Of a stretch of 64,000 nucleotides of DNA, positions 10,441-39,326 are shown piece after piece. The notes under the pieces are model-generated. The model was not told where the DNA came from, searched no databases, and worked only from the letters and a program-made list of their open reading frames with translations. Position 1 is the first letter of the stretch; each line of letters opens with the position of its first letter. The DNA is from Plumapathes pennacea (taxonomy: Eukaryota > Cnidaria > Anthozoa > Antipatharia > Myriopathidae), in assembly GCA_964036295.1 (NCBI GenBank), contig OZ038466.1, positions 14,418,001-14,482,000 on the forward strand. The letters are read 5' to 3'. Position numbers and translations under genes: made by a program.

Positions 10441-10539
10441 CTCTGGATGAATATGTAGATGTCATATCAGATGTCAAGCTGTGCATCATATGAATAACAA
10501 GACTAGAATGACCAGTGAGCTCGTGGCGTTCGAGTGAAT

Positions 10540-10801
10540 ACACGCATCAAGAGTTTTGACTTTTGGTTGGATCGCACTGTGTTCTGGGTAGGTTTGGCTC
10601 AAAAAGTGAGCACCAACTTTACTGCCATTTCAAGCTTGGAGCTTGGTAAATGTGTACGTTTTAGAACGGATAGAAGTTGACTGAGCTCCAAGCGTGAAGT
10701 GCAAAATGGCAGATATTGTAGAGCTGGTGCTCACTTTTCCGAGCTAAACCTACCCAGAATACAGTGCGATCCAACCAAAAGCCAGAACTCTTGATGCGTG
10801 T
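10540..10801. repeat. Long imperfect hairpin (~120-bp arms)
   Basis: The left arm opens 'acacgcatcaagagttttga' and the right arm ends 'ccagaactcttgatgcgtgt'. Matching continues inward through 'ggttggatcgcactgtgttc' against 'acagtgcgatccaacc', then 'gtgagcacca' against 'tggtgctcac', then 'aagcttggagct' against 'gagctccaagc'. The loop is short (about 25-35 nt). Bulges are few. It could be a palindromic MITE or a transcribed long hairpin. Confidence 0.75.
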
Positions 10802-10806
10802 ATGTG

Positions 10807-11143
10807 CAAGATGTTCCTGGTGACGAGGTTGTGGTATCAATCTTTTTCTGGTCTCGCCCCAGGCCTATCCGTGTTCAAGAAGCGAGCTATAAACTTGGAT
10901 TGTTTTTGTGTGTTTGTTGGAGCGCTTAGTAGAATGAGGCAGGAAAGAAAAGGTACGATTTGAATTTTTAAGTGGTTGATAAGTTGTATTTAACAGCTAT
11001 AATGTGCTTCCACAAAAGATTTTGTATCGGTACTTGGCCAACGGAAAATTGCACCATCGTGCATGAAGAATTTTTGGATTTTATTGTATTTATCAATTAT
11101 GAATTAAAACCACGAGCATATAATGTGACAACGACCCGTATAA
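10807..11143. other. No recognisable feature
   Basis: AT-rich sequence without a convincing frame, lying between the hairpin and the HelB 5' end. Confidence 0.4.
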
Positions 11144-12754
11144 TCCCCGAACGAAGTGAGGGAAATAATCACGACGCTAATGCAGCAAAATCGCATCATT
11201 TGAAGACTCCAAGCGTGTCGCCATCTCGAAATTTAATGTTCGTGTGTGTGTGTGTGTGTGTGTGGGGTACGACTCGTCCCCAGGGCCATCCACGTCGAGC
11301 GACCACTGCGAGGTTACATCGGCAGCTTAACTGTAAACCGCCATTTTCTTAGTGACATGCGGTAGCTGTAAGAGTACGAACGGAAGTGATTTTGTACAAT
11401 AAGATGTAGATACAAGGCCAAGCAGTTCGACGGACGGCTGTAATTTGCCCGGATATTTTGCCGGTGTATGGGAGGCAAGCTTACTAGCCGTGAAACGGAT
11501 TCTTAAAGGCACAACTGGTCGACCTGAACACAATCCCAGACGCCAGTATTGTGTTAAAACGCAGACACTTCTTCAGAAAGAAATAGCAAAATACAGTTGG
11601 TGGAAATCGAACAATCATCGTGGCAAATTTCACCTTTTACAATAACAGGAATGTAGTTTTCAGAATCCAAGTTTGACAAGATGACGACACACAATACAAT
11701 GGAAAGTGGAATTTTCGTACTGTATGAGGACTGCTCTATACAGTGTACTTTGAAATCACTGAAGACGCAAACAGTAGTGTTTTGGGTTTTGTTTCCTTTG
11801 CTGGAAAAGAGCTAAAGCTATAGCTTTCAGGAACCGGTGAGTTTTGAAAATTTACATCAATTAACGTACAACGATTTTGTTAAATGACGGTCGTGTTATC
11901 ATTATGGTATTTCAACAATTGCCGTATATTTTGTCGTTTGATGCCCCGGGAACTGTGATGAAGGCCAAGTAGGATTATACTGTGATCTTTTCGCTAGTTT
12001 TCAAAGCTATTTCAGAGTGCCTTCGTGCAAGATTGTGTCATCCGATTCCTGACATATTTGCATAATTTCACTGACAGTCTGACACATGCTGTGAAGTTTT
12101 GTCGCCGCGTTTGTTGGCACACTGTATTCAAGGATAAAATGTAACCGTGTTAAGATGCTTTTGCTTTTTGAAGGCTATTAAAGTATTAGAAAATATCCGG
12201 CCACTGCTTTCCAAATTAAACAATTACAGTCTATTGTATATTATTGTCTACTAGCGGGACCCCGTAAGATACTCGCTCAACACAATCGGACCTTGTATTA
12301 TTTAGTGACTTGATTTCTTTTTTCTATCAAAGATTTTAAAATCGTCAAACGCAGTTTGAAAAGTTGTTGTGTTCAAAATTGAATCCCTGCCAAAATTCAC
12401 ACGGTCCCGAGACTTCGAAAGCGTGTAAACAAGCGACTCGCTTTGACGGCTCTAAATTTTGTCACACTCGAAGAAGCGTATTAAAGTTATAAAGTAAAAA
12501 AAAAAAAAAAAAAAATTCAGTGTCCAAGATCGACTTTGCTTGGCTTTCAAGCCTCGGGAGTATTCTGTAGTTGCGTGTAAATGTACTGCCGTGCGACAAA
12601 GATATTTTTTAGCGGCCGACTGGTGGCGTTGCTACAACAGCCGTGGTTTGCAAAAGAATTTTTAAATAATCTCCGAACCGAAAATAAACAAGAATCCAGC
12701 TTTCCGAAAACCCACTACTGAGCGAGGGGATATCTGCGATTATCGTATTTCTAG
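11144..12754 (+). mobile_element. HelB Helitron, complete non-autonomous copy
   Basis: The 5' end TCCCCGAACGAAGTGAGGG is preceded by A and has the canonical Helitron TC start. The 3' end is ...ATTATCGTATTTCTAG followed by T, with CTAG at 12751-12754. This fits insertion between A and T without target duplication. A (GT)n run (about 11238-11262) takes the place of the (CAGT)n-type run found in other HelB 5' ends. No long open frame; phrases such as 'tggaaatcgaacaatcatcg' are shared with the coding remnant at 50314-50805. The element is about 1.6 kb. Confidence 0.8.
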
Positions 12755-12984
12755 TTTATTGATATTAAACAACTGTGTCTGATGTACTATTAATACAGTA
12801 AAATTTAGACTGTACTTGCACCTCTGTGAGCCTATATTTCTCATAGCAGCAAATCATGAAACTTCAGTATAAAGAATGTCATGTTCGTTGGATTTACATG
12901 ATAGCTGGGTTGAAATGTTGTTCAAAATCAAAGGGCGTTCTTTCTCTTTGTGGCCCATGGTCTCGGACAGCAAGTTTATTGTGC
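12755..12984. other. No recognisable feature
   Basis: Between the HelB 3' end and the tandem block. No frame, repeat or terminus is recognised. Confidence 0.4.
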
Positions 12985-13315
12985 AGCAGGAATAGTTTTT
13001 CATGTCCATGCACCGAGTGACCACAATATTATAAATGTCTTTGGCTGTGCATACAAGTCCAGCATCAGTTTTTTCTGATGAAGTTTATAGAATAGTTTTT
13101 CATGTCCATCAGTTGACAGTGGCCAATGTGATAGCTCCATGAATGTCTTTGATGGTTGCACATTGAGGTTCTATACATCCAGTTTAATCTGATGAAGTAT
13201 ATTGATATGCAGCATTAGGAATAAGTTTTGGTGTCCACCAGAGACTACAAATATCCATGAATGCCTTTGGCTGCAGGTGTATACAAGTCTAGCATTTAGT
13301 TTCTTCTGATGAATG
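12985..13315. repeat. Three diverged tandem copies of a ~105-130 bp unit
   Basis: Three successive blocks each contain 'gaata(a)gttttt-c-tgtccat', then 'atgaatg(t/c)ctttgg', then 'tacaagtccagcat..ttttctgatgaa'. They start at about 12988, 13089 and 13217. They lie downstream of the HelA helicase frame and may be part of the HelA 3' non-coding region or a separate old repeat. The sequence 13316-13852 is AT-rich and otherwise unrecognised. Confidence 0.65.
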
Positions 13316-13852
13316 ATATGAAACTTTTCCAAGTGAGCAGGATATTATTTCTTGTGTAGTCATAGCTGCAGGCAGAATAATTATTGTATTCAGGCAGCAG
13401 CACTTGATTGTAGGTACACTGCACTGGCTGGAAGTAATGGATCCCACAGTGGCAATGTTATTGTAGTTTGAGTCAGTCATATCAAGTAATAGAGGGTCTG
13501 CGGAGAGAGTGATCGATTCATTAATGTAGTTGAATGAAATGTTTGTATACTATACCCACCCCACTATCCTAAAAATGAAGGTGACTTACCTTTGTCAGGA
13601 AGTCAGTGTGGGAAGCTGGCACCATGGTGCTAGCAAGTAGGATCCGCTGAACATGCGATGTTTATCCAGTTGTGTCCATAAACATAAACTGTCCACAAAT
13701 GTAACTTCTCTGAGCAGTGTTGTGTACACTGTACAAAATTATCATAATATTATAATATATTTATTTCAATGATTTCCTAAATGAACTCCTTGATGTACGT
13801 ATATCTGTTGTTTAGAAAATGTACAGTGTAGGGATGCATATAGCAGCTGATG

Positions 13853-16800
13853 TTATGCTAGCTTTACAGTTATTGTAACAGCATCGTGATCAGAATACTT
13901 TAAAACTTTTGTTTGTCGGATCAAAGGGATTGTCGATTTGTTGATTAGCATGTTACCAGCATTATGGTCATCAAATTTTATATAGACAATAGTTGGTTTG
14001 TGGGTGTTTTGATCGGTAGCAATGTGAACAACAGTGCCCATTTGTCCATTTATAAGTCTGTCTGCAATATCAATGTTTGTTGTAAGCATGACTCTGGCAC
14101 TTTCTTTTATAAATATTTCAGAATCAAGTCCACCTGTTTCAGAGCGTCCTTTAGAAAGAACTCTTTCAATGTCTTGTCTTGTGACATTCTGTGGATACTG
14201 ATCAATTGCTCTAAGTACAAAAAGTGGTGAGGATATCTGTTGCAAACGTTGGTTGTTGTACACATTAACAGGATTATTTTCAGCCCATATATGGAGTGCA
14301 TCTGATGGATAATTTTCATCTGAAGGGGTTATGGACGTGGTCTGAATACATCTGATGTCATCTTCAGTTTGTGATGCTGTCCTGATTCTGTTCAAAAGCT
14401 CAGCGAATTTGTGGTCATCTTTTTGTCTCATTATTTCTGTGAGCTCTATCATTTTGAAAGCTTTCCATGGATGACATAAATTGTAGGCATCATTTTTGAA
14501 ACATGAAAAAACAGGTTTCCTACGTATTGGTGGGAGCTGGTACAAATCTCCGACAGCAATGATGCTTATGCCAGCAAACAACCGAGAGTTTGGAGTGACA
14601 AAAATTTGCTGTAGTCTTTGGTGTACATGGAGTAATGCACTGTTTGAAACCATTGAAATCTCATCTATAATTATCAGCTTGAGTTCAGATAATGACATTC
14701 GCATTTGTGTTTTCTTTTGGTCTGACAGTGGAGGTACATTATCCCCTGTTTCTTTAGGGATTGATAAGGCAGTGTTAATTGTAGTGCCATTGATGTTTAT
14801 AGCTGCAACACCAGTGGGGGCCATTAATAGGACTGTGGGTAGCTCTGGATTTAAAGGAGCATGTTTGAAAGTTTTCACTGCAGTATGGTAAATGGTTTTT
14901 ATTAAGTGGCTCTTTCCTGCACCAGCACCTCCTGTTATGAACAGATATATTGGTTCTACTTTCTCTGGTTTCAAGCTATTAAAATTCTTCATTTTAGTTC
15001 TGCACCAAGCAAGAAGAATATTGTATGCATAGCGTTGCTTGTTGTTCAAGGATCGAACAGATTCACGGAGAAAGTCATCAGATACATCTGAAGGCTGGTT
15101 ATGAACTATAAGTCCTGAAGATGGTTGCTGAGGCTGATCAGAATTTGGAGCAAGATCATCAGGTGATTGCTCATATGGCATTGAATTGTTGTCTTCTGGT
15201 TCACACTGGATATCTTCATTTTCTTGATCATTTATAGGATCATAGTGAGGTATAGCTCCTGGGTTATTTCTTAAGAATTCTAAAGCCTCTTCTACAGCTT
15301 CAGCATCAGGTTGAAATAATTCTCGATTGTGCTCAACAATGGGTTGCACATCAGGCTCATAAAACTTTGACATGTATGTTTGATCTGTGCCAAGCAGGTC
15401 ACCTTCTTCTCGCCATGGAAAATAGAGCATAAGTAGATGATGGAAATATTTTTCAGGTTCCTTTCTTTTGCTTGGAGTATGAAACCGTATAACAGCCTTG
15501 ACTTTTCTGCATTTCATAACTTCATTGGTAATTAGCAGTCTTATTTTATTAGGAAGTAGCTGAAAGTCTGTGCTATCAATAGAAGACTGTGTGTGCTGTG
15601 ATTCAATGACATCATCAGTTAGGACATCCGGCTGAGCATCATTTGTTTCATTACGTTCACTGTAATAATCTTTGTAGTAATGTGCTGCAAACTCAGCTAA
15701 ACATAGTCGATCAACAGCAATAATTGTTTCTGGCCGATAGGTGTAACGTTCAATGATATTAGATTTAAAAATATCTGTACTGTCTTCATCTAATGCATCA
15801 AGCTCATCTTGGCTTTTTGCTACACGCAATCTGTTTTCTGGTAAGTTTGTGCTAACAAAAATTGTTGCAGGAAATGTTTTTCTCAACCAAAGTTCAGGCA
15901 TGCATCTGTAGACACATTCTTGTGAACTAACTTCTCTAGTAGACAGAAAAGCAGCACCTATTTTTCTCAAGCTTTCTTTAACAGTCAAATTTGAATTCCT
16001 TGCTTCTTTTGCTGCATTTGTGATGGCCTGTGAACATTCAGTTTCATCTTTTGAAAAATAGGAACAAACATATGTTAAGCACTTGTAGTGGTTAAAAACA
16101 GGTTGTAAGTCAACATTTGCTGCAAAACCCTTTACTCCTGCTACAAAATAATTGTTAATGAAGCAACTGTCCACTGGTCTTTTGAGATGCAACTCATGAT
16201 AAGAATCAGTAGAAATTGATAATGCCCACTCATAATCTTTTTGAGAGATACCTGCTAAGTTCAAAACTTGTTTTTGAGTAAGGTTAGGATCATAATCAGA
16301 TTTACTTGGGTCCAAGACCTCATTAATTTTCTTTTTGACAGAAGTTAGAATTGCACTTTGCTTAGAGAGGACTTCAGCTTTTGCAACTTCACTAAGGTCA
16401 TCTGACAAAGGTTCTGCTACAACTGTTTTTTCTGTGAAAAGCTGACCAAAATTAAATCTGCATGGAATGTTTCTATATTTTCTACATGTTTTAGAGTGAG
16501 TATGTTTTTGATAAGTTTTAACTAATTCATACAAGTCGGGATCATTCTCTTTGTTTGGAAGGCAACCTTGTACATGCTTGTCTAGATATTCTATATATTC
16601 CTCTTTGCTGTCATGTGTTAGTTTCGGACAATCTGAAGTCCATATCAGTGCATGTAAGTGTGGAGACCCCCTCATTTGGAACTCAATTCGAAGAGCATAG
16701 TAGATTATCTTCCCTATGGGGTTGGCTCTGTTAAGCAAGACTTCCTTGAAAAATGTTTCAACTCTGTACTGGAAGTGTTTTGCTACAACAACAGGATTAA

Positions 16801-17914
16801 GATTCAGCATAGAACATCTTTCATTGTATGACAAAGCTTGGACTTGTTCATCAGTCATATTTTGTCCTTTTGTCCTTGCAATAATTTGAAATAGTTCAGG
16901 CCATCTAAGATCAGCGCATGATAATGTCATGAACCATGTTGGAATTCCCAGTTGGCGAACCATACCTACAACTTCATACATAAATCTTTGCCAGTATGGT
17001 GGAGAGCCTGGAATTTGCCTCAGAAACAAATATGCTTGATCTTTTGAAATAAGATTTTGTAAGTTTTGTACATTTGATCTCAATTCCGAGGCTTTCATAG
17101 ACTGCCCATGGACCTTTTTGAGAGCGATGTTAATACTGTCAGATACTTTCTTTTGCTCCATTACAAATTGTGCATAAAACAGGTACTCTGGATTTGTTGC
17201 AAATCGCCCACTATAATGTAATAGCCGTGCATTAAAATATTTCACTGGTGTCAATTTAATTTCCCGTTGAGCTTGATAACCAAATCTTCCTTTTGGAAAT
17301 AATATAGGAAATGCTAGTTCTTCACACTGCTTTTCAATCATTAATGACACAGGATGCTTATTTTCTCCAGGTGCAACATTATAAACTTCATTTCCTAATG
17401 AAACATTGCTTTCATCTTGCTCCTCCAAAATTACAGGGTAATCCGGAATTACAGACTGTAAACAGGTTTCATTAGTTGGCGCTCTATGTTCATTCAGTGG
17501 GTCATCATTTTCCTCTGAGTTGTCATTTATTACATCAATATCATCAAATATTCTATCAGCAGTGGAACTTTCTTCTTCGGGTGAACTTGAAGTCATATCT
17601 TCTGATGCACTTTGGTCAGCCAGACTTGTTAAGTTGCTGTCAATATTTTGAATGTCAATTGCTATGTTTGTATACAATGGATTATTCAGTTTGAGCCAAG
17701 TAAGGGCAGCATGAATTATCTGTGGACGCACAGCTTGAAAATAGACATGGCCTCTAAATTCCAGCTTTCTCTTAAGTTTCAACATTATAATACCTGACCT
17801 TTCAGGAGGACCGGGTAAAATTCTACAAGTCTGTTCACAGTCAACAGGCACATTGCAGATTGCACCTTTAATCTTTCTTTGTTGTCCTTTAGGCATTACC
17901 ACTATTTTTTTCAA
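13853..17914 (-). CDS. Helitron Rep nuclease-PIF1 helicase, C-terminally truncated
   Basis: An open frame of about 1350 codons. Residues ~185-430 form the Helitron-type N-terminal Rep region with 'FPILFPKGRFGY' and the HUH motif HLH at 419-421. The paired catalytic tyrosines fit Y615 and Y619 in 'TYVCSYFSK'. HUH Reps nick and join single-stranded DNA in rolling-circle transposition. A PIF1-type SF1 helicase follows: Walker A GGAGAGKS (995-1002), Walker B IIIDE (1081-1085), 'GDLYQLPP' (1122-1129) and 'ARVMLTTN' (about 1273-1280). The frame stops at residue 1353 before the expected 'VHKxQG' and 'ALSR' motifs, so helicase motifs V-VI are missing. The first ATG in frame is residue 7; the frame really continues from 17889-18344 across an A7 run near 17907. 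Confidence 0.93.
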   Translation of the reverse strand: MKKIVVMPKGQQRKIKGAICNVPVDCEQTCRILPGPPERSGIIMLKLKRKLEFRGHVYFQAVRPQIIHAALTWLKLNNPLYTNIAIDIQNIDSNLTSLADQSASEDMTSSSPEEESSTADRIFDDIDVINDNSEENDDPLNEHRAPTNETCLQSVIPDYPVILEEQDESNVSLGNEVYNVAPGENKHPVSLMIEKQCEELAFPILFPKGRFGYQAQREIKLTPVKYFNARLLHYSGRFATNPEYLFYAQFVMEQKKVSDSINIALKKVHGQSMKASELRSNVQNLQNLISKDQAYLFLRQIPGSPPYWQRFMYEVVGMVRQLGIPTWFMTLSCADLRWPELFQIIARTKGQNMTDEQVQALSYNERCSMLNLNPVVVAKHFQYRVETFFKEVLLNRANPIGKIIYYALRIEFQMRGSPHLHALIWTSDCPKLTHDSKEEYIEYLDKHVQGCLPNKENDPDLYELVKTYQKHTHSKTCRKYRNIPCRFNFGQLFTEKTVVAEPLSDDLSEVAKAEVLSKQSAILTSVKKKINEVLDPSKSDYDPNLTQKQVLNLAGISQKDYEWALSISTDSYHELHLKRPVDSCFINNYFVAGVKGFAANVDLQPVFNHYKCLTYVCSYFSKDETECSQAITNAAKEARNSNLTVKESLRKIGAAFLSTREVSSQECVYRCMPELWLRKTFPATIFVSTNLPENRLRVAKSQDELDALDEDSTDIFKSNIIERYTYRPETIIAVDRLCLAEFAAHYYKDYYSERNETNDAQPDVLTDDVIESQHTQSSIDSTDFQLLPNKIRLLITNEVMKCRKVKAVIRFHTPSKRKEPEKYFHHLLMLYFPWREEGDLLGTDQTYMSKFYEPDVQPIVEHNRELFQPDAEAVEEALEFLRNNPGAIPHYDPINDQENEDIQCEPEDNNSMPYEQSPDDLAPNSDQPQQPSSGLIVHNQPSDVSDDFLRESVRSLNNKQRYAYNILLAWCRTKMKNFNSLKPEKVEPIYLFITGGAGAGKSHLIKTIYHTAVKTFKHAPLNPELPTVLLMAPTGVAAININGTTINTALSIPKETGDNVPPLSDQKKTQMRMSLSELKLIIIDEISMVSNSALLHVHQRLQQIFVTPNSRLFAGISIIAVGDLYQLPPIRRKPVFSCFKNDAYNLCHPWKAFKMIELTEIMRQKDDHKFAELLNRIRTASQTEDDIRCIQTTSITPSDENYPSDALHIWAENNPVNVYNNQRLQQISSPLFVLRAIDQYPQNVTRQDIERVLSKGRSETGGLDSEIFIKESARVMLTTNIDIADRLINGQMGTVVHIATDQNTHKPTIVYIKFDDHNAGNMLINKSTIPLIRQTKVLKYSDHDAVTITVKLA

Positions 17915-18344
17915 AAATGATACGCTGTGCTATAAGTATCTGTTCAAGTTTCTCTAACAGAGCCAATTCTGGAGGGACTTCATCTAAATACAGGTTGTTT
18001 TTAACAGCTTGGCATGGAACTTTCCCTTTTAAAATCTTTGAGTGGCAGGTATTACAAATATATTCCTTTTCATCAAATGACTTTTGACCGGTAAAAAAAT
18101 CTTGCATAGTGTACTTTGTTCTCTTCAGTTCTACAACTGACTTTCTGTAAAGTATTCGATTACATACAGAGCATATAAAGTAAGGACCATCTTTTATTTT
18201 GTTTTTAAATTCTGCAAGATGGTACTCTAAATTATGTATTATACTTTTAGATCTTCTCTTTTTACTTGCTTCTCTTTTTTTTTGCACATAAAATGTCCTT
18301 TTTCTCTTGATCCATGCTGTGATATTTACTTTTCTTACATTCAA
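17889..18344 (-). CDS. Cys-rich domain frame of the HelA polyprotein
   Basis: A 151-codon frame between the protease-repeat frame and the Rep-helicase frame, overlapping both. From residue ~40 it has 'FICSVCNRILYRKSVV' and 'YICNTCHSKILKGKVPCQA', a four-or-more cysteine, zinc-finger-like arrangement. This kind of segment commonly precedes the Rep domain in animal Helitron proteins (I believe the family now called DUF6570). The start of the frame is a shadow of the upstream repeat frame; the meaningful part begins near 18275, where a run of nine A (minus strand) offsets the two frames. It ends at a stop reached only because of a seven-A run at about 17907. It is most likely a middle section of one protein. 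Confidence 0.8.
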   Translation of the reverse strand: MNVRKVNITAWIKRKRTFYVQKKREASKKRRSKSIIHNLEYHLAEFKNKIKDGPYFICSVCNRILYRKSVVELKRTKYTMQDFFTGQKSFDEKEYICNTCHSKILKGKVPCQAVKNNLYLDEVPPELALLEKLEQILIAQRIIFEKNSGNA

Positions 18345-21300
18345 GCCAATATCTTTTAGCTGATGGTTCTGTGTTATTATATCTTCGTGTCATATTGTGA
18401 ATAAGTGCCCTTTTTTTGTTAGACTCCATAAGTCTGTACTTTTTTGCATTTTTGGATAGAAAGTCTTGTTTTTTTTTAGGTTCCATTGATTTGTATTTTT
18501 CAACCCTTTTAGACAAAAGGTCCTTTTTTTGTTTAGGTTCCATTGATTTGTATTTTTCAACATTTTTAGACAAAAGGTCCTTTTGTTTAGGTTCCATTGA
18601 TTTGTATTTTTCAACATTTTTAGACAAAAAGTCTTTCTTTTGTTTAGGTTCTATTGATTTGTATTTTTCAGCATATTTAAACAAAAGGTCCTTCTTTTGT
18701 TTAGGTTCCATTGATTTGTATTTTTCAACATTTTTAGACAAAAGGTCTTTCTTTTGTTTAGGTTCCATTGATTTGTATTTTTCAGCATATTTAAACAAAA
18801 GGTCCTTCTTTTGTTTAGGTTCCATTGATTTGTATTTTTCAACATTTTTAGACGAAAGGTCCTTCTTTTGTTTAGGTTCCAGTGATTTGTATTTTTCAGC
18901 ATATTTAGACAAAAGGTCCTTCTTTTGTTTAGGTTCCATTAATTTGTATTTTTCAACATTTTTAGACAAAATGTCCTTCTTTTGTTTAGATTCCATTGAC
19001 TTGTATTTTTCAGCATTTTTAGCAAGAAGGTCCTGTTTTTGTTCATGATTCATTGATCTATATTTCCCAGCCATATTATTTACAATGCATCTTTTTTTAG
19101 CAGGTTCCATCATTGTATATTTTTCTCTTTCTTGTTCTCTTTTTCGTTTTAGAGTATCTTCTCTTTTTCTGGAAGAAATCTGTTTCCTTGTTATTTTGTG
19201 CTTTTCACTTTTCGTCAAACAACATGAGCATGAAAGAAACTGTATTTGATAGTGCACTTCATCACATGCAAACTTGTCAAGAATGATAGAATAGATTATG
19301 TTAATGAGCAACTCTACATCATCTACTTTCTGAAATAAATGTGGTGATTCACTTTGATCAAATGCTAATACAACAAATTTTGTTCTCCTTTTTGCTTGTT
19401 GTTGAAAAATACAACTTAGGCAGTACGTTGAAATCCATAACAGAAAGCCAGTATTATTCCTATTGTTTTGTGTAATACGTTCATGAAGATTCTGCTTGCT
19501 TAAACTTTTGTCCTTAGACAGAACTCCTTGTCTTTTAGCAGTAAAGACAACATTAACATCAGTGCCTGCACATATCTCTAGTTTATTTGGTAAATCACTT
19601 ATCACAAGGTGTTTGTCAACATTCATTTTCCTGTAAAATGTGTTACCTTTTTCAATTACAGCACTTAATGTATCAGAATTCCAATAGCTGCAAGATTTAA
19701 TTACAGAGAAACAAATGCTATAGAAAGAAATTGCACAGCACTGCTTACATTTGCAAATAATTGCTTTACTTCTTTGCTGAACAGTTGTAGGTTCTTCACA
19801 TCTGTGCCTGTTGTGTCTGTCTTCTGTTAGACAAATGTTTACTCCTTTAATTTCAAATGTAATGGCAGGCAAGTGTACATATAAAGTCTGGAAATATTCC
19901 AATAAATTGCCAACTGAACGAAGTTCAATTAATACACATTTTCCTTCAGGATGTTCCATGCCAAAACTATCTCTACTATGAGAATCAAATACTTTGAACC
20001 TGCCACCTGACAAACAAAATACAGCTACAGTACTACAGCCTATTGTCAGAATAAAGCAGCTGAAATCCTGTCTGAGCAATAAATTAAAAGCCCCAGTCAG
20101 TGTTGTACAGTAAGCAAAGCCTTCGATGGGAAAGCAAGTTCCAAACAAATTACCCACGTAACTTTCACTGTATTGCAGCTCATACTGAGTTTCATATATT
20201 GTGACCATTCCAGGTAGATCTGTCAGCAGCAAAAAATAGTCCTTAGATAATTGCGAAAGAGTGGAATACAGATTGTTCCCAGCATTCATAATTTCGCTCA
20301 AATCCTCTGATAAAGAAATAAAATTCGTGTGGTTAAATATGACAGCTGCTACAGACATAGCTACACATTGTCGTCCAGCATTATCTCCAAATATTGCAGC
20401 ATTACCTTGACTGTACGGTGCAATGATTGTTTTGTTTGGATCGACAACTGAAGGACCGGGATTTTTTTCTATATCCCTTGACAGAGAAAACGCGTAGTAA
20501 TTGATTTTGTGATTTCTATCTCTGAACACAGCTGGTCTCGAAATGCTTGTCCTTGAAGTCATTCTAAAATACAAACGTACCTTAGCACCTCGTTTACTTT
20601 TGACAAACTTCTTTTTGAACTTATAGCTTTCTCGCAGCGATGGTTTATTGATCCTAATTTTCTCTTTGCATTTCTGTGGCTTTCTATTGTTTCCATGTTG
20701 TTTACGCGCACGTTCACGGAATGCATTAGCATTGTGAAGTACGTAAGCTCTGGTATAATCATGAACTTTTGACGACTTTGGGACATTCTTTGAAATGTAT
20801 TCTCGTAATAGTCGCCTGCTTTTCCTGTCCTTGTTCAGAACGCGCGAAAGTTCATTCAAAGGCACTCGGCTTGGCTCACGACTTCGTCTTGGACGAGTTC
20901 GATTTTCTTTCACATAAACATTACTGGGAATACAATAGAACTGCTCAAAGCGAGATCTACCAACGACCACTTCTTCTTCAATCATGTTCCAATTTTCAAA
21001 TAATAACGCCACGTTATCTGCTGCCTGTTTGATCTTCATGGCACTGAGCCAAAATGTCGCAACAACAACAACACAAATGCACAACAGAGTGAAACGTTGA
21101 TTCCAAAGAAAAGTCAGATTTTCTGACGCTTTACTTGTATCAGCAAGAATAATACAAAGTAAAAGAATACAAAGTACCTTTAAGTTCACCTTCATACTAA
21201 ACAGTTCCATATACACTATCAAGCGATGGCCAAGAATCGAAGTAGTTGCTTCGCCGTTAATATCATTCGGGTTCTGATCTTTGCATTTGGAACCCCTTCG

Positions 21301-21612
21301 TTCAGCTTGTTCCTTCAAGTTCTGGACGTCAGGATCTTCGTACATTTCTGTACAGTTGTGCATAGCTATGCAGTTCATTGATAAGAACATTAATATGTTC
21401 TTTGATATGTTCACTGATATATTCATTGCTTCATTTGCGGCTTTTTTCAAAGCTTTCGAGGCTGAACGGACCGACCCAAGCCAAAACCGCTCAATGAAAT
21501 TTAGTGTGGGTCTACCGCAGCCGGCGTATGCGTTTGTAAGTAGGATGAGCGGTCCATAAAAGAATCCACAGAGCCAACCAAGGCAAGCAACGCACAATTC
21601 CATCGCCCACAT
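18262..21612 (-). CDS. HelA N-terminal polyprotein: membrane region, 2A motif, protease-like domain, Lys-rich repeats
   Basis: Open from 21702 (a GTG codon), but the first ATG is at 21612, where the short copies also keep ATG-TGG. In numbering from the GTG, hydrophobic segments lie at about 36-59, 172-187 and 200-221, followed by a basic region. DIEKNPGP lies at 410-417, a 2A-like ribosome-skipping motif preceded by the usual small hydrophobic stretch (YYAFSLSR). A ~200-residue domain follows with Gln445-Cys446 ('GRQCVAMS') and Asp573-x-His575 ('FDSHSRD'), like papain-fold deubiquitinases of the peptidase C76 type. The tail is about 14 copies of a 19-residue 'EKYKSMEPKQKKDLLSKNV' unit. The frame ends at a nine-A run, after which the protein continues in the next frame. 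Protease activity is inferred. Confidence 0.85.
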   Translation of the reverse strand: MWAMELCVACLGWLCGFFYGPLILLTNAYAGCGRPTLNFIERFWLGSVRSASKALKKAANEAMNISVNISKNILMFLSMNCIAMHNCTEMYEDPDVQNLKEQAERRGSKCKDQNPNDINGEATTSILGHRLIVYMELFSMKVNLKVLCILLLCIILADTSKASENLTFLWNQRFTLLCICVVVVATFWLSAMKIKQAADNVALLFENWNMIEEEVVVGRSRFEQFYCIPSNVYVKENRTRPRRSREPSRVPLNELSRVLNKDRKSRRLLREYISKNVPKSSKVHDYTRAYVLHNANAFRERARKQHGNNRKPQKCKEKIRINKPSLRESYKFKKKFVKSKRGAKVRLYFRMTSRTSISRPAVFRDRNHKINYYAFSLSRDIEKNPGPSVVDPNKTIIAPYSQGNAAIFGDNAGRQCVAMSVAAVIFNHTNFISLSEDLSEIMNAGNNLYSTLSQLSKDYFLLLTDLPGMVTIYETQYELQYSESYVGNLFGTCFPIEGFAYCTTLTGAFNLLLRQDFSCFILTIGCSTVAVFCLSGGRFKVFDSHSRDSFGMEHPEGKCVLIELRSVGNLLEYFQTLYVHLPAITFEIKGVNICLTEDRHNRHRCEEPTTVQQRSKAIICKCKQCCAISFYSICFSVIKSCSYWNSDTLSAVIEKGNTFYRKMNVDKHLVISDLPNKLEICAGTDVNVVFTAKRQGVLSKDKSLSKQNLHERITQNNRNNTGFLLWISTYCLSCIFQQQAKRRTKFVVLAFDQSESPHLFQKVDDVELLINIIYSIILDKFACDEVHYQIQFLSCSCCLTKSEKHKITRKQISSRKREDTLKRKREQEREKYTMMEPAKKRCIVNNMAGKYRSMNHEQKQDLLAKNAEKYKSMESKQKKDILSKNVEKYKLMEPKQKKDLLSKYAEKYKSLEPKQKKDLSSKNVEKYKSMEPKQKKDLLFKYAEKYKSMEPKQKKDLLSKNVEKYKSMEPKQKKDLLFKYAEKYKSIEPKQKKDFLSKNVEKYKSMEPKQKDLLSKNVEKYKSMEPKQKKDLLSKRVEKYKSMEPKKKQDFLSKNAKKYRLMESNKKRALIHNMTRRYNNTEPSAKRYWLECKKSKYHSMDQEKKDILCAKKKRSK
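18380..19110 (-). repeat. 57-bp tandem repeat encoding Lys-rich 19-mers
   Basis: Units of 57 bp on the minus strand encode EKYKSMEPKQKKDLLSKNV with alternating 'SKNV' and '[FS]KYA' endings, so the higher-order period is partly two units. About 10 units are highly alike and the flanking ones have diverged. One unit near 18590 lacks a Lys codon but keeps the frame. All changes between units are in-frame, which suggests past selection or recent expansion. The antisense strand is also open here and should not be read as a gene. Confidence 0.9.
20452..20475 (-). other. 2A-like ribosome-skipping motif DIEKNPGP
   Basis: Minus-strand codons gat-ata-gaa-aaa-aat-ccc-ggt-cct encode the strict core D(V/I)ExNPGP. 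In known 2A peptides the ribosome fails to form the Gly-Pro bond, releasing the upstream product and restarting at Pro. Here the motif lies exactly between the membrane/basic region and the protease-like domain, where a separation would make sense. Confidence 0.8.
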
Positions 21613-21808
21613 ATCTCCTTCAAAATGGCGAAACTGCTCGCCCGGCAAGTCATGTGATGACAAAACGTCATCATAAATCACGTGAAAATATGAACCAATC
21701 ACCGTGTGCTGATTCGTAACCCAGAAAAAAAATAAAATAAAAATAAAAATATGACGATGATGAAGACACGCCTTCCAATCCTAAGCTCGTCGGCTCCGCC
21801 ACGAGCAA

Positions 21809-22132
21809 CTAGACTGGCGTTGCCAGTGAGCTCGCGGCGTGACTTGCGTCGAGACCAGAATATACTAAAATGGAAAGTAAGGACAAGAGCGGAACTCCCA
21901 AGAGAGACGAAGTCCTAAAGTGGGATGAGTGTTGTAATGATAATTTATAGTTTAATCAGATTTCATTTGAGCAAGGTGTCAACAGCCAAGTTCTCTATAA
22001 CTGTGTGATATTTTTCTGGTGAGAAACTGGAAGTCTCTCTTGGGAGTTCCACTCTTGTCCCTACTTTCCATTTTAGTATACTCTGCTCTCGAAGCAACTC
22101 ACGCCGCGAACTCACTGGCAACGCCAGTCTAG
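21809..22132. mobile_element. Two HelA 3' ends in inverted, back-to-back order
   Basis: A minus-strand HelA 3' end occupies 21809-21908 (CTAG at 21809-21812) and abuts the coding copy's 5' end. A plus-strand 3' end occupies about 21918-22132 (CTAG at 22129-22132). Their last ~100 bp are inverted repeats of each other, separated by about 125 bp of HelA 3' sequence. Both have the ACTGGC-loop-GCCAGT hairpin and both CTAGs are followed by T. Confidence 0.8.
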
Positions 22133-24180: not shown

Positions 24181-24743
24181 GAAGACTGGAAAGGCCAGTG
24201 AGCTCGTTGGGTGGGGTCGAGACCAGAAGAAACTAAAATGGAAAGTAGGGACAAGAGCGAAACTCCCAAAAGAGACTTTCAGTTTCTCACCAGAAAAATA
24301 TCACACAGTATAGATAACTTGACTTTTCAAACCTTGCTCAAATGATACCTATTGGTATAAATTGTCTTTACAACACTCATACACTTGCTTCTAAAAGGTT
24401 GAGCGACTGCATTTTGAGCTTTGGAGTGAAAAAGTTAGCCAGCAAGAAAAGAGTAATGCGTGACTTATCTTTTCATGCACAGTCGATTTTGACAATTTGG
24501 CGTTGAAGACTTATTTGTAATCAGAGTCCACGATAAGCTAGCCTTCGCTTCAATACTTATTTATTTTTTTACTGAAGCGTTTCTTCTATGAGGCTTTCGA
24601 GTATTCGCGCTCTGTAACAAATACAAGTTGGAAGCGAGGAATGTAACAGGAGACTTGTTTACAATATTATTACGGTTTTGTTCACAGCGTGTTCAGTCCA
24701 TTTGTGACTAGCAAACTCAATGTTCAGGACTATTTCGGTGTAT

Positions 24744-25895
24744 TTGCTCGCGCCTGCGGCGAGCTTAAAAACGGAGTTTCTTTGTTTGTTTGTTTTTCTT
24801 CTTTTTCTGAGTCGAGAATCAGCGCACGGTGATTGGTTCATATTACCACGTGATATGCGATGATGTAATTGACTTCGCGAAACTCGAGATGTGGCCAGGC
24901 GAATTGCTTGTTACTTGTGTGCAAAAGGTAACTGCATCCCATCAAAACTCAAACACCGTTTGGCTCTGTGGAACATGCACGGATAAACTGGATTTTAGGA
25001 AACGATTTTGGCTTGCGTTAGTTCACCGTGGAAGCTTTGAGAATAGCCGTAAACAAATGTTTGATGGATACCTCTACGGGATTGCAAATATCTCTGTCGC
25101 TGCTAATTATTTAGTCCCGACGAAACTTTCTGTGATGACACGAAGTACTTCTGGGAAGATACCAGGCCGAAAACGAAAACCAAAGCAATGATGAGCTTTA
25201 GCCGTAAAACAATGACGCTTTATGCTTTACACTGTACATGACATCTGTTGCCTCATAAAATGCTTCTGCTTATCGTACATTGCCTGTTGAAATGTTTCTT
25301 TCGTTCGATCAAGTAGCCTTTGTTTCGCAGTGGTAATTGTATACTAGAAATGAAAAATACACCGAAATAGTCCTGAAGATTGAGTTTGCAGTCACAAATG
25401 GACTGAACACGCTGTGAACAAAACTGCAATAATATTGTAAACAAGTCTAGTGTTACATTCCTCGCTTTCAATTTTATATTTGTAACAGAGCGCGAATACT
25501 CGAAAGCCTGATAGAAGAAACGCATTCAGTTAAAAAAAAGAAACAGTATTGAAACGAGGGCTGGATTAATCGCGGCCTCTGATTAGAAACAAGTGTTCGA
25601 AGTCAACTGTCAAATTTGACTGTGCACTAAAGTCAAAGTCACGCATTACTCAGTTTTTCTTGCTGGTAGTCCCTCAACCTTTAAGAAACAAATGTATGAG
25701 TGTTGTAATGATAATTTATAGTTTAATCAGGTTTCATTTGAGCGAGATGTCAAAAGCCAAGTTCTTTATACTGTGTAATATTTTTCTGGAAACTGGAAGT
25801 CTCTTGGCAGTTCCGCTCTTGTCTCTACTTTCCATTTAGTTTATTCTGGTCTCGACCCAACTCACGCCGTGAGCTCACTGACAACGCCAGTCTAG
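24744..25895 (+). mobile_element. HelA copy nested in another HelA copy
   Basis: The 5' end is TTGCTCG at 24744-24750 and the 3' end CTAG at 25892-25895 after the hairpin 'actgacaacgccagt'. Left flank '..cggtgtat' and right flank 'ttttcatttctag' join into the uninterrupted HelA phrase 'ggtgtatttttcatttctgg' seen at 30435. This fixes both ends with no target duplication. It has no SINE and provides the empty site (gtaa at 24865-24868). Confidence 0.9.
24889..25191 (+). pseudogene. Truncated HelA N-terminal reading frame
   Basis: An ATG-initiated 101-codon frame: 'MWPGELLVTC', then 'LCGTCTDKLDFRKRFWLA', ending '..GKIPGRKRKPKQ'. Its start and the 'RFWL' region line up with the coding copy's N-terminus ('MWAMELCVACL...FIERFWLG'). 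It is the only near-intact version of this leader frame among the short copies; others break after about 50 codons. It may be a relic or a short peptide; no function is known. Confidence 0.5.
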
Positions 25896-28697: not shown

Positions 28698-29911
28698 ATG
28701 TCGCTTGCAGAAATACTTAATCCAACTAGAAAACCGAAATTGTCGAAGGCAATGAAGGCAGAGAGAACAGTTCATAGGACGACTTTCACACCATCGTCTG
28801 CTAAGCCTGGGGAAACGCTTTATGTTGACGTGCCGAGATTAGGTGAAAACATAGTGTTCGTCCCAAAGAGTATGTTTTTGAGGTTTAACGTCAAGATAGA
28901 AAAGGGAGATGCTGATAATCACCTAGTTCAAAATGTTTCAAGACATTTAATGAATCACACGAAAAGTTCCTTTGGAGGAAAAAATATTTGTGATACAGAC
29001 AGATATGATATTTTTCATGGGTACCATGACATGCTAACATGTGAGGAAGATATGAAAAGAGGGATAATGACTGAGATCAAAAGAAAGACTAGAGCAAAGG
29101 GATCTGGTGATTCTAAGATCATGAATCTCACAAATTTGGCCTACGATCAGAGGTATCACATTCCTCTATCTCACCCGGTGTTAGATGATCACGGAGTGTA
29201 TTATCAAAGTGGACAAATCTGAGATTTGAGATAAAACTTGCGATAGTCGCGACGTCAGACAAAACCAAAGATCATGGTTATGAGTTGACAGACATAGAAT
29301 TAGAATACACAACCATCGAGGATCAAAATTTAGCGTTTCAAGCGACTAACGTTTATCAAAGCGGGAGAACATTCTACTTTGAGGATGTTCATCACTTCAC
29401 AAGACTTCCTTCAGTTGATATTTCGACTGGAACCACGATGAATCTTCATGTTAATATTCCAAGAAGTTGTATGAAAGGAATCATGCTGTTCTTTTTGAAA
29501 AATTTTGCTTCGGGTGAGAGGGAAGCTGAGGAGTTTGTTAATCCTCTCCTTAATTCTGTCAAAGTATCTATCAATGGGGTTCCACACAAGTTATTTTCAG
29601 ACGGAGTTTTACGAGAGGATGTTTGGCCAATGATTTTGAAAAGATTTGATTACATTGAGGATCACTTCAAGGAAGTCGACTTTCATAATGACAAGTTTGC
29701 ATTGTGGGTTGATTTGAGATCGACGCCAGGCAACAGGTATTTTACACCTTTGAGACTCCACTCCGTCCCAACACAACCCACTGTCCCAATACAATTGTGT
29801 CATAAACCGGCTTGGGGAGAAAAGTGCCCTTCCATTAAATCAATAATCAAAAATCAAAAATCAAACATTCCGAAAGCGGCAACTTTTAAGTTAAAAGCCC
29901 TGTATATATGA
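28698..29911 (+). pseudogene. Polinton/adintovirus-like major capsid protein, frame-broken
   Basis: Two frames of 174 and about 230 codons. The first starts at ATG 28698 ('MSLAEILNPTRKPKLSKAMK', 'PGETLYVDVPRLGENIVFVP'). The second follows a one-base offset at about 29219 and runs to a stop at 29911 ('MKGIMLFFLKNFASGERE', 'KFALWVDLRST'). The pattern fits the double-jelly-roll capsid proteins found beside Polinton integrases in cnidarian genomes. Such proteins form virion shells. Length and order are near complete, with one internal frame break, so it is recent but probably inactive. It stands divergent to the integrase fragment. Confidence 0.65.
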
Positions 29912-33729: not shown

Positions 33730-35160
33730 TTAACATCAAGGGAAAGCTTGAACCAAGTTTCCGAGCTCATTATTGGCACGAAACTGTCTACCAGCAATAG
33801 ACGCTTCTGAGCTGACTCCTTTGAATGTGCGGCGGTGCTTCCAGCCAGATTCCAGGCATCATCACTCAGTGTGGCATCCAAATCTGATAAGACACGCGAC
33901 GGGGCGTCAGCGGGTTGTCTTTCGACGGCACGTAGCGAAGTGACAAACCCAGATTCCTCTCAGTACAGAACTGGAATAAGGATTTTAACGTGGCCGAGAT
34001 GACGGGCGATTTGGACACCTGCTTTTCCCAACTTGCTACCGGCACTTTACTATCCACGGAAACATCGATCCTGGCGTTGTGGAAGTCGTTTGCAAGGTTT
34101 TGAAGGGTATACAGGAGAGCTAAAGTCCCTTTGGCGGTGATGGGGAGTCCACGTTCATGAACGTCCCAATAGCCTCGTGTTTCCACCGTCGTTTTGCCTT
34201 CCTGTAATATCTGACCGCTCCAACCGGAATTAGATGCATCAGAAAATGACTGGGCTTGGTGGTGGAATTCCGACCTCCAAGGTAAGCAGTCTTCCCCGGT
34301 ATCTAGGAAGCGCCAGTGCGCGATCTCTTGTCGGAGTGGCTCTGATAGCCGGATTTTGGCGTTGGACGTTGTACTGTGAGCAGGGCATGCCTAAGGATCG
34401 TATAAAATTTGTAGCAGCTAAACCAATGCTATGGTACACAAAAGCGCTGGCTTTCCATCCGAACGGGAGAGTAGCGTAAGGGAAGTACCATCCCTGCCAC
34501 TCCAGACCAAAGAGCGTAGAGCTAGATGGGTGGAGGCGCACGTGGTCATAACCACTTTTATCATCGAAAGTGGTTTGAAAATGGTCGCTGTTCACATACC
34601 GGATGAGATCAGTGAGGTAGTCTAACGTGAATGGACAGTATTTAGTCCAGCAGTTAAGAAAACGTTCATCGTGGCACATGCGTGGCATTGACGGTTCCAC
34701 GGTGATTGGCATGACCAAATGAGGTGGCTGACAGGACCCGACTTTTCCCACTATATTTAGCGACCCGTTAACGATCCTCTCCATGATTGTCTTAGATATG
34801 AAATCATGAAAACGCATCACACGAACGTGAATTGGGAAAGATGCCCGCTGGCGGGATGTCGCTGCTGTATTTTTTGCCTTGGAAGGTTCCATCAAAAGGG
34901 GTGAAGAACTCGGATATATCTATTCCCCGGGATATATAGGGTAGGATCTCGTCCCTCTTGGGGTAGTCTGCCAGTATTGAAACCCATTGTGGAAGATTAT
35001 TGGTGAGGTTACCCGCTGTAAAGGAATCCGGATCCCGGAACCTGAGCATACGTGGGGAAGCGAAAACCTTGCCGTTTGATACTGAATAGACGGACGGGAG
35101 TGGTCCAGTCCAGTTGATAGGGTTGCCCTCCCAGTCACACCACTTAACCTCGTGGTTTTG
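33730..35160 (-). pseudogene. DIRS-like reverse transcriptase/RNase H remnant
   Basis: Minus-strand pieces in several frames. Upstream linker 'MLRFRDPDSFTAGNLTNNLP' (35049-). RT with 'VMPITVEPSMPRMCHDERFL', 'FDDKSGYDHVRL' (motif A), 'LPFGWKASAFVYH' and 'CSQYN' (34239-34895), where the usual Asp-Asp box is lost to substitutions and a frame change. RNase H with 'GTLALLYTLQNL', 'SKVPVASW' and 'LRYVPSKDNP' (33866-34186). The order RT-RNase H and the wording fit tyrosine-recombinase retrotransposons of the DIRS group. No recombinase frame follows before the direct repeats. It is dead. Confidence 0.8.
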
Positions 35161-37671: not shown

Positions 37672-39326
37672 ATGACTCTTAACGAGAAACAGCGTCTAGC
37701 CTATGACATTCAGAACCACCATTAAGCCCTGCATGCTGACGAAGCAACAGCTCCACTGCGAATGATCATTTCAGGGACTGCTGGCACTGGGACGTCATAC
37801 CTCATTAGTGCTATTGCAGATGTGCTCAAAGAGGAATGTGTTCTAACAGGAACAACAGGAATGGCAGGATTCAACATCCATGGCTGCACCATCCACTCTA
37901 CTTTGCAGCTCCCTGTACGAGAGCAGAGAAACAAAGAATTACAGGGACAGCCACTGCAGCGGCTTCAGATGTTTCTGGAAGGAAAGCATTACATCCTCAT
38001 AGATGAAATGTCAATGTTGGGCCAAAGGAGCATGGGATGGGTTGACAGGAGGCTACGCCAAGGAACAAGCCAGCTTGCTGAACCCTTTGGGGGACTATCT
38101 GTCATCTTGATTGGTGACTCTGGCCAACTTCCACCTGTTGGGGACAGACCAATTTATGCAGCTGCTACAGGATCAGTTCTTGGTGACCAAGGCCACTCCG
38201 TTTACAAAATGTTTGACACAGTTGTTCTGCTAAAACAAGTCATGCGACAAGCAGGAAACAACCCTGAAGCAGCAGCTTTCCGTGGCTTGTTGTTGAGATT
38301 GAGAAATGGCCAGTCAACAGAAGACGACTGGAGGAAGATACTTACAAGGTCACCAAGCACCAGCAACGAGGCCGAGTTCAAAGATGCAGTCAGACTGTTC
38401 TTTGATAAACAGAGTGTGGCTGAATATAACTATGAGAAGTTGAAGAGCCTTAACACCCCCATTGCTCGCATCTCTGCCAAACACTCTGGCACAGGTGCAG
38501 CTTCTGCCAAGTCAGATGATGCTGGTGGCCTGGAACCAGAGAGGGAGCACAGGTGATGCTCACATCCAACCTGTGGCAACAAATGGGCTTGTGTAATGGT
38601 TCCCCTGGTACAGTACAAGACATTCTCTTTGCGGAAAACACTGGACCACCAGACCTTCCCATTGCTGTCCTTGTAAATTTCCCACACTACACTGGACCCC
38701 ATTTCATGGAGGAAAGACCACAATGTATTCCATTACCACCACAACTGTTTGAGTGGAACTCCCATGGTAACAGACGTTCACGCCTTCAAGTCCCCCTGAG
38801 ACTGCGATATGCCATGACTATCGACAAGTCACAAGGTCAGACCCTATCCAAGGCAGTGATTGACCTGGGTAAAAGTGAGAAAGCAACTGGATGCACCTTT
38901 GTTGCAGTATCAAGAGTGCGTTCCCTTGACCATGTGCTCTTCCAGCCAATCACCTTTCACAGACTTCAGTCTATTGGTAAGGCTAAAAGTCTCAAAAACA
39001 GGATAGCTGAAGACGACCTACTGGCTGTATATGCAAAACACACATGCAGTAAATTCAGGCATGCAAACCCTGTGGTCCAGCCAAAAGTCTCAAAGCCAGC
39101 TGTTTTAAGCAGTGTGCCAAGGAATGAACGAAGAAAATGCAAAGTCAGAACCCAAATATTGCACTCTGATGTTACAAATGCTCACTTCATCAAAGAGTTC
39201 ATCCGCTCAGAAAGGGAATCACTGTATCATCAACTCGATCAAGTGCTAGGTTTCGGAAAGGCACATCATGGCACAGCTCCATCCTGTTGTACAAACTCGT
39301 TACACAGCACTTCCAACCAGTCCTGA
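37672..39326 (+). pseudogene. PIF1-type helicase of a third Helitron-like element
   Basis: The frame starts 'MTLNEKQRLAYDIQNHH' and meets an in-frame TAA (37723). It continues with Walker A 'SGTAGTGTSYLI', where the invariant Lys is Thr (AAG to ACG). Then come Walker B 'YILIDEMSML' and 'VILIGDSGQLPPVGDRP'. After a frame offset near 38550 it carries 'MLTSNLWQQMGLCNGSPG', 'MTIDKSQGQTL' and 'FVAVSRVRS' (38553-39326). The complete helicase motif set is present but inactivated. No Rep domain is seen upstream (37027-37671). Sequence differs clearly from the HelA helicase. Confidence 0.88.

Follow-up and report, generated by a model that had tools for sequence, protein, structure and literature searches.

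The stretch of DNA analysed here, called the window throughout, comprises 64,000 nucleotides of Plumapathes pennacea (contig OZ038466.1, positions 14,418,001 to 14,482,000) and carries on its minus strand an element that its domains and ends mark as a Helentron, a rolling-circle DNA transposon, in a decayed state (Table 1). The first frame of this copy contains the 2A octapeptide DIEKNPGP, at which the ribosome would divide the product of the element into two proteins. The initial annotation had described, without naming the strand, a Helitron polyprotein in the frame 18262-21702, with DIEKNPGP at codons 410-417, hydrophobic segments ahead of it, Gln-Cys and Asp-x-His after it, and a Rep-helicase downstream. 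These observations were borne out: the frame has 1146 codons on the minus strand, the motif reads from 20475 to 20452, Kyte-Doolittle windows recover the hydrophobic segments, Q445-C446 and D573-S-H575 follow the motif, and the Rep-helicase lies downstream, in the window copy in other frames (17889-18344 and 13853-17914). The first ATG is residue 31 (21612-21610), approximately 200 bases inside the 5' end of the element.

Table 1. Positions in the window of the parts of the Helentron copy.
Feature	Position	Strand	Details
Helentron copy	10496..21811	-	breakpoints common to other copies (blastn, ends read); 5' end ~21808-21811, 3' end ~10496
Frame encoding the pre-2A product, the 2A, the VTD and the repeats	18262..21702	-	1146 codons
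First hydrophobic segment	21535..21597	-	residues 36-56; Kyte-Doolittle windows
Second and third hydrophobic segments	21028..21210	-	residues 165-225; Kyte-Doolittle windows
Basic 'REPSR' domain (name coined here)	20761..20958	-	residues 249-314; common to upstream parts of OTU Helentrons
2A octapeptide DIEKNPGP	20452..20475	-	residues 410-417, one coding frame
VTD deubiquitinase domain (predicted)	19822..20451	-	residues 418-627; C446, D573, H575, Q445
Charged 57-bp repeats, part matched by DUF3106	18463..18777	-	residues 976-1080; Pfam; 57-bp offsets in blastn
Second frame, start of DUF6570	17889..18344	-	below curated cut-off on its own
Third frame, remainder of DUF6570, Rep and PIF1 helicase	13853..17914	-	
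Helitron_like_N (HUH Rep)	16643..17239	-	PF14214, E 7.9e-36
PIF1 helicase	14378..14953	-	PF05970, E 3.4e-25
Insertion of ~1.6 kb, 3' part of element	11145..12751	.	gap in blastn alignment to other copies

Helentrons are characterised by subterminal inverted repeats and by the lack of terminal inverted repeats and of a target duplication. When the ends were read by eye, GCTCGTGGC was present at seven of eight 5' ends and its complement, GCCACGAGC, at all six 3' ends, as subterminal inverted repeats, and a target duplication was not visible in the five copies for which both ends were shown, their 5' ends being blastn breakpoints. The third frame has the Rep motifs PHLHAL (HxH) and YVCSY (two Tyr; by eye), and a PIF1-type helicase is found in the same protein as Rep both in the window (E 3.4e-25) and in a single-frame copy on contig C1 (E 1.8e-25). 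The tail of the C1 copy matches endonuclease families below their curated cut-offs (PF14529, 22.2 bits, cut-off 27.4; PF03372, 17.6 bits, cut-off 24.5), and the relatives P0058 and P0059 pass these cut-offs for a C-terminal endonuclease. Relative to other copies (blastn), the window copy lacks approximately 970 bases near position 13900, between helicase and endonuclease tail, and most of that tail is deleted; together with the split of DUF6570 over two frames and the ~1.6 kb insertion, this leaves it broken.

Counterparts with a long open frame are found in the same genome assembly (290 Mb, 24 contigs), where the VTD part matches at least 151 places, many at 98-100% identity. In the C1 copy, a single open frame of 2788 codons, with 16 ahead of the first ATG, carries the pre-2A protein, 2A, VTD, repeats, DUF6570, Rep, helicase and endonuclease-like tail; VTD, DUF6570, Rep and PIF1 are above the Pfam cut-offs and the tail below. 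A copy on contig C2 is open over 2948 codons, with a Rep about 16 residues shorter than in the C1 and window copies and an endonuclease region that stops early (both by eye). Comparing C2 with C1, omega was 0.15 around the 2A (33 codons); the VTD and the stretch that follows it gave 0.20 and 0.33, the repeats 0.60 and DUF6570-Rep-helicase 0.20. As a second copy holds all the parts in one open frame, two products from one mRNA, as proposed in the initial annotation, would be the natural reading. The 'membrane' character which that proposal gave to the first product comes down to hydrophobic segments.

The motif is more frequent in this genome than by chance, the D[I/V]ExNPGP codon pattern having 121 matches (62 + 59) compared with one for a reversed control. 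Twenty copies of the element were fetched, with an additional downstream stretch for ten of these, and 13 contain DIEKNPGP in an open frame of at least 250 codons and one contains DKETNPGP. Furthermore, the exact codon pattern stands directly upstream in 38 of the 44 listed VTD copies (matched over residues 1-203, contigs C1-C9).

Retention of the motif extends to relatives. A first search with residues 380-640 gave 54 homologues, and NPGP occupies the junction in 50 of them, with HPGP in one more. A full-length profile search (best 120 of 160) and a search with P0074 (23) enlarged the set to 181 proteins, of which 111 have a VTD, 84 of these with more than 25 residues ahead of it. The few organisms named among the matches of these searches, Oculina, Paramuricea, Dendronephthya and Exaiptasia, are cnidarian. 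D.E.[NH]PGP is present in 65 of the 84; among the other 19, P0049 has DVGENPGP, P0089 has approximately 35 residues without the motif, and in the remaining 17 the hidden Markov model (HMM) start falls mid-domain because of apparent long inserts within the VTD. Immediately before the octapeptide, the window copy has Arg, roughly half of the DI group has Gly and the DV group has Asn (20/20). Leu occupies position -3 in 97% of DI sequences, and in the DV group, whose junction reads LLLRLANDVEENPGP, LLL(R)L precedes the motif.

The 2A also precedes a second, unrelated deubiquitinase, OTU, at a junction of the type LLLSGDIELNPGP. Local HMMs run on 183 sequences gave the order 2A-VTD in 72 and 2A-OTU in 22, and matched the motif at no place other than before these two enzymes; P0102 falls outside the pattern, with GGDIENPGP, one residue short, ahead of DUF6570 and an OTU after DUF6570. 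The link between 2A-OTU and Rep is drawn from proteins carrying both domains. D.E.NPGP is missing from 17/18 OTU and 33/52 newly listed VTD proteins among the best 120 of 160, many of these predictions starting at or inside the enzyme, and the 2A is therefore a feature of some lineages and not of all. In a quick tree of DUF6570+Rep (LG+G4, with a long-branch warning; 139 rows reduced to 92 by dropping rows more than 85% identical with the same label), 2A-VTD and 2A-OTU are each scattered over several places, and P0172, a 2A-OTU protein, is nested in the 2A-VTD group that contains the window copy (8 rows; support 100).

Eight other 2A sites of the P. pennacea genome were read. At L039 (C1) and L042 (C3), outside the VTD family, an OTU domain directly follows the 2A (Pfam E 1.9e-10 and 3e-12, respectively), and at L043 (C1) the 2A is followed by an OTU-like stretch (by eye) which then breaks off. 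L044 (C1) continues into an endonuclease-like stretch as in the retrotransposons without long terminal repeats (non-LTR), known users of 2A (by eye), L046 stays open past the 2A, with no domain assigned, and stops soon follow at L040, L041 and L045.

The domain that follows the 2A in the window had been likened to a papain-like protease of the C76 type, and structure prediction (AlphaFold2, Foldseek, VIA-align) recovers this VTD fold. The domain matches PF04843 at 29.8 bits (cut-off 25) and aligns with 8ADD (E 8.2e-5) with the catalytic residues in register, and C446, D573, H575 and Q445 are each conserved in at least 90% of 37 rows. The window VTD is predicted to remove ubiquitin. Two of the conditions under which the initial annotation would have been refuted, loss of the motif from related full-length copies and absence of a papain-like fold, were examined and neither was observed, so that its interpretation is supported.

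Ahead of the 2A, hydrophobic windows (19 residues, Kyte-Doolittle mean > 1.6) begin at residues 36-38, 165-176 and 196-207, and residues 249-400 contain 47 Lys and Arg compared with 11 Asp and Glu. This basic part is under purifying selection (omega 0.32, C2 vs C1 frames). The AlphaFold2 model of the pre-2A product was poor (predicted local distance difference test, pLDDT, 63.8; predicted template modelling score, pTM, 0.31) and for this reason no fold search was made with it. Profiles were compared among upstream parts of at least 40 residues, excluding the 20 residues nearest the junction. The 'REPSR' profile, built solely from DIE-type 2A-VTD proteins, matches the upstream parts of 15/16 DIE-type 2A-OTU, 2/6 DVE-type 2A-OTU and 6/7 LxGG-OTU proteins, and 0/27 of the DVE-type 2A-VTD proteins. 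A second profile, made from the short hydrophobic protein of DVE-type 2A-VTD elements, matches 3/6 DVE-type 2A-OTU proteins and the sole DFE-type 2A-VTD protein, with no match in the remaining groups of upstream parts. By these profiles there are two kinds of upstream protein, each paired with each enzyme, and the element common to them is the junction.

LRGG is the tail of ubiquitin, and the coronavirus protease PLpro cleaves polyproteins behind LxGG besides acting as a deubiquitinase. L[KRN]GG, in each case followed by Met, Val or Ile, stands 29-33 residues ahead of the OTU match in ten of the 17 OTU-first proteins that lack a 2A (P0078, P0079, P0083, P0084, P0086, P0088, P0092, P0131, P0145 and P0148), a position comparable to that of the 2A in 2A-OTU proteins, 20-42 residues ahead of OTU. 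Three others (P0094, P0096 and P0134) have at least 50 residues ahead of OTU and neither 2A nor L[KRN]GG, and four (P0119, P0156, P0159 and P0181) have at most 33 residues there. The background of L[KRN]GG is 18 occurrences in 238,696 residues (181 proteins), and the ten cases are not independent since they form two clades of the tree. LKGGM could also be taken as an internal start codon, though Val or Ile follows GG in three of the ten. We take L[KRN]GG to be a second kind of junction, which the deubiquitinase of the element itself may cut. The likeness to PLpro, where LxGG likewise stands directly ahead of a deubiquitinase, is one of motif and position, and cleavage in the transposon is only presumed. 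We put forward tentatively, at less than even odds, that these are two-product Helentrons with an interchangeable junction, in which one of the two unlike upstream proteins is parted from a transposase headed by VTD or OTU, either through 2A skipping or, where there is no 2A, through the element's own OTU cutting after LxGG in the manner of PLpro. If true, self-processing, beyond protection from the proteasome, would partly explain why a deubiquitinase occupies that position.

For the window's own family, we consider it highly probable (roughly 0.85) that one long Helentron frame is read as two proteins via ribosome skipping at DIEKNPGP. On a single mRNA, the ribosome would skip the Gly-Pro bond between G416 and P417. 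Product 1 would be the hydrophobic and basic protein with a C-terminus ending in NPG, and product 2 would start with Pro and contain the VTD, charged repeats, DUF6570, HUH Rep, PIF1 helicase and endonuclease-like tail. Skipping would leave the transposase with a separate, clean N-terminus headed by the deubiquitinase, and would free product 1, which would probably be made in excess of product 2, to go elsewhere. The support is at the level of sequence and comprises a conserved motif, an open frame common to all parts in another copy, the predicted fold and catalytic residues, and the occurrence of 2A before two unrelated deubiquitinases; skipping itself, removal of ubiquitin by this VTD, the stoichiometry and the role of product 1 are inferences.

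Several observations weigh against this proposal. No NPGP-type motif was found in a frame of at least 250 codons in 6/20 fetched copies, the exact pattern is missing from 6/44 VTD copies (C1-C9), and the window copy itself is unable to make the full product 2. Residues 1-200 showed no purifying selection in the single pair tested (omega 1.01, synonymous divergence dS 0.16), and all three protein queries included the 2A, giving a mild bias toward finding the motif. According to the available part of PMC12846837, Gly is strongly preferred before the octapeptide in viral motifs whose first residue is Asp, and efficiency may be low because Arg (window) or Asn (DV group) stands there instead.

The octapeptide might be kept for a protein-level reason, as a linker or as a cleavage site of the element's own enzyme, with a fused polyprotein made or cut later. 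That the motif adjoins an enzyme with a papain-like fold, that Arg precedes it in the window and that L[KRN]GG at the same place in ten OTU elements makes a processing site there plausible all fit this account, which we nevertheless hold to be improbable, as conservation falls on the residues of the known 2A core while the free position varies, and as VTD and OTU are both preceded by this motif, behind upstream proteins of two unlike kinds. That the motif arose by chance or is a functionless relic, as the decay of most copies and the 6/44 without the exact pattern could suggest, is very unlikely given NPGP in 50/54 homologues, 121 matches compared with one in the control, and an omega of 0.15 around it. 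A programmed frameshift layout of the three window frames, which overlap at 18262-18344 and 17889-17914, was rejected as scarcely credible because the same stretch lies in one open frame in two other copies and DUF6570 is cut mid-domain.

Ribosome skipping at 2A is described in PMC12846837 (available part) as mostly a viral device, seldom found in cellular genes, and non-LTR retrotransposons are the transposon users named in the part of PMC4981915 available. In those of the APE type (Odon 2013; Heras 2006; both via PMC4981915), D[V/I]ExNPGP likewise lies inside a transposon reading frame; here the carrier is a rolling-circle DNA transposon and the motif directly precedes a deubiquitinase. The D(V/I)ExNPGP core, and in many relatives a Leu-rich context, is shared with viral StopGo/2A as presented in the accessible text of PMC12846837, the differences being a DNA transposon instead of an RNA virus and Arg or Asn in place of the preferred Gly. 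One scan of the viral collection, with 21 matches to the pattern, turned up no relative.

VTD-bearing Helentrons have already been described, cnidarian members being mentioned and three zebrafish VTDs shown to be active (Erven et al. 2022, PMC9741609, as far as available), with the proposal that Helitron VTDs shield proteins needed in transposition from degradation. Those elements share the deubiquitinase family and the transposon class with ours and have a C-terminal apurinic/apyrimidinic (AP)-type endonuclease, for which ours offer the endonuclease-like tail as a candidate, whereas 'NPGP' is absent from the main text and no 2A or separate upstream product is named in the parts available. A review (PMC6431247) describes animal RepHel proteins with OTU protease and AP endonuclease, and its available sections mention neither a 2A nor a separate upstream protein. 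The initial annotation knew of no standard description of this layout; the deubiquitinase is already known in Helentrons, and the 2A layout appears to be the new part. Within partial coverage, which did not extend to the eukaryotic-2A survey of Rao et al. 2025, no text joining 2A with Helitrons was found; in their accessible parts, texts with both Helitron and 2A peptide concern long intergenic non-coding RNAs and Harbinger transposons, and the one combining 2A-like, transposon and cnidarian concerns RNA interference in crustaceans. Priority is unsure since some of these proteins may already appear in Rao et al. 2025 (Cell Rep; cited in PMC12846837). With a conserved 2A, rolling-circle DNA transposons would join the users of skipping as an unrelated class, and any reconstituted transposition system would possibly need the upstream Helentron protein. 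Furthermore, the 2A before two unrelated deubiquitinases, together with the LxGG alternative, makes the question of why a deubiquitinase is present experimentally addressable.

Elsewhere in the window, an open reading frame at 24829-25191 (+) starts with nearly the same residues as the element frame (IGSY[FY]HVI.DDV) and 39 bases at 24816-24854 match the element 5' end in reverse; 24816-25191 may be the 5' remnant of a related copy that has largely disappeared. Matches of approximately 90% to the element's own 3' end occur at 21811-21840 (30 bases) and 24182-24207 (26 bases), the former directly before the element 5' end, as if elements stood end to end. A 174-residue open reading frame at 28698-29219 (+) has a weak, below-cut-off match to the N-terminus of a major capsid protein (PF16903, E 7.6e-4), and a 218-residue one at 34242-34895 (-) a similarly weak, below-cut-off match to reverse transcriptase (PF00078, E 0.0026). 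Two adjacent open reading frames at 37762-39323 (+) match a PIF1-type helicase (PF05970, E 3.9e-24), with Pif1 2B and herpes helicase-like matches below cut-off.

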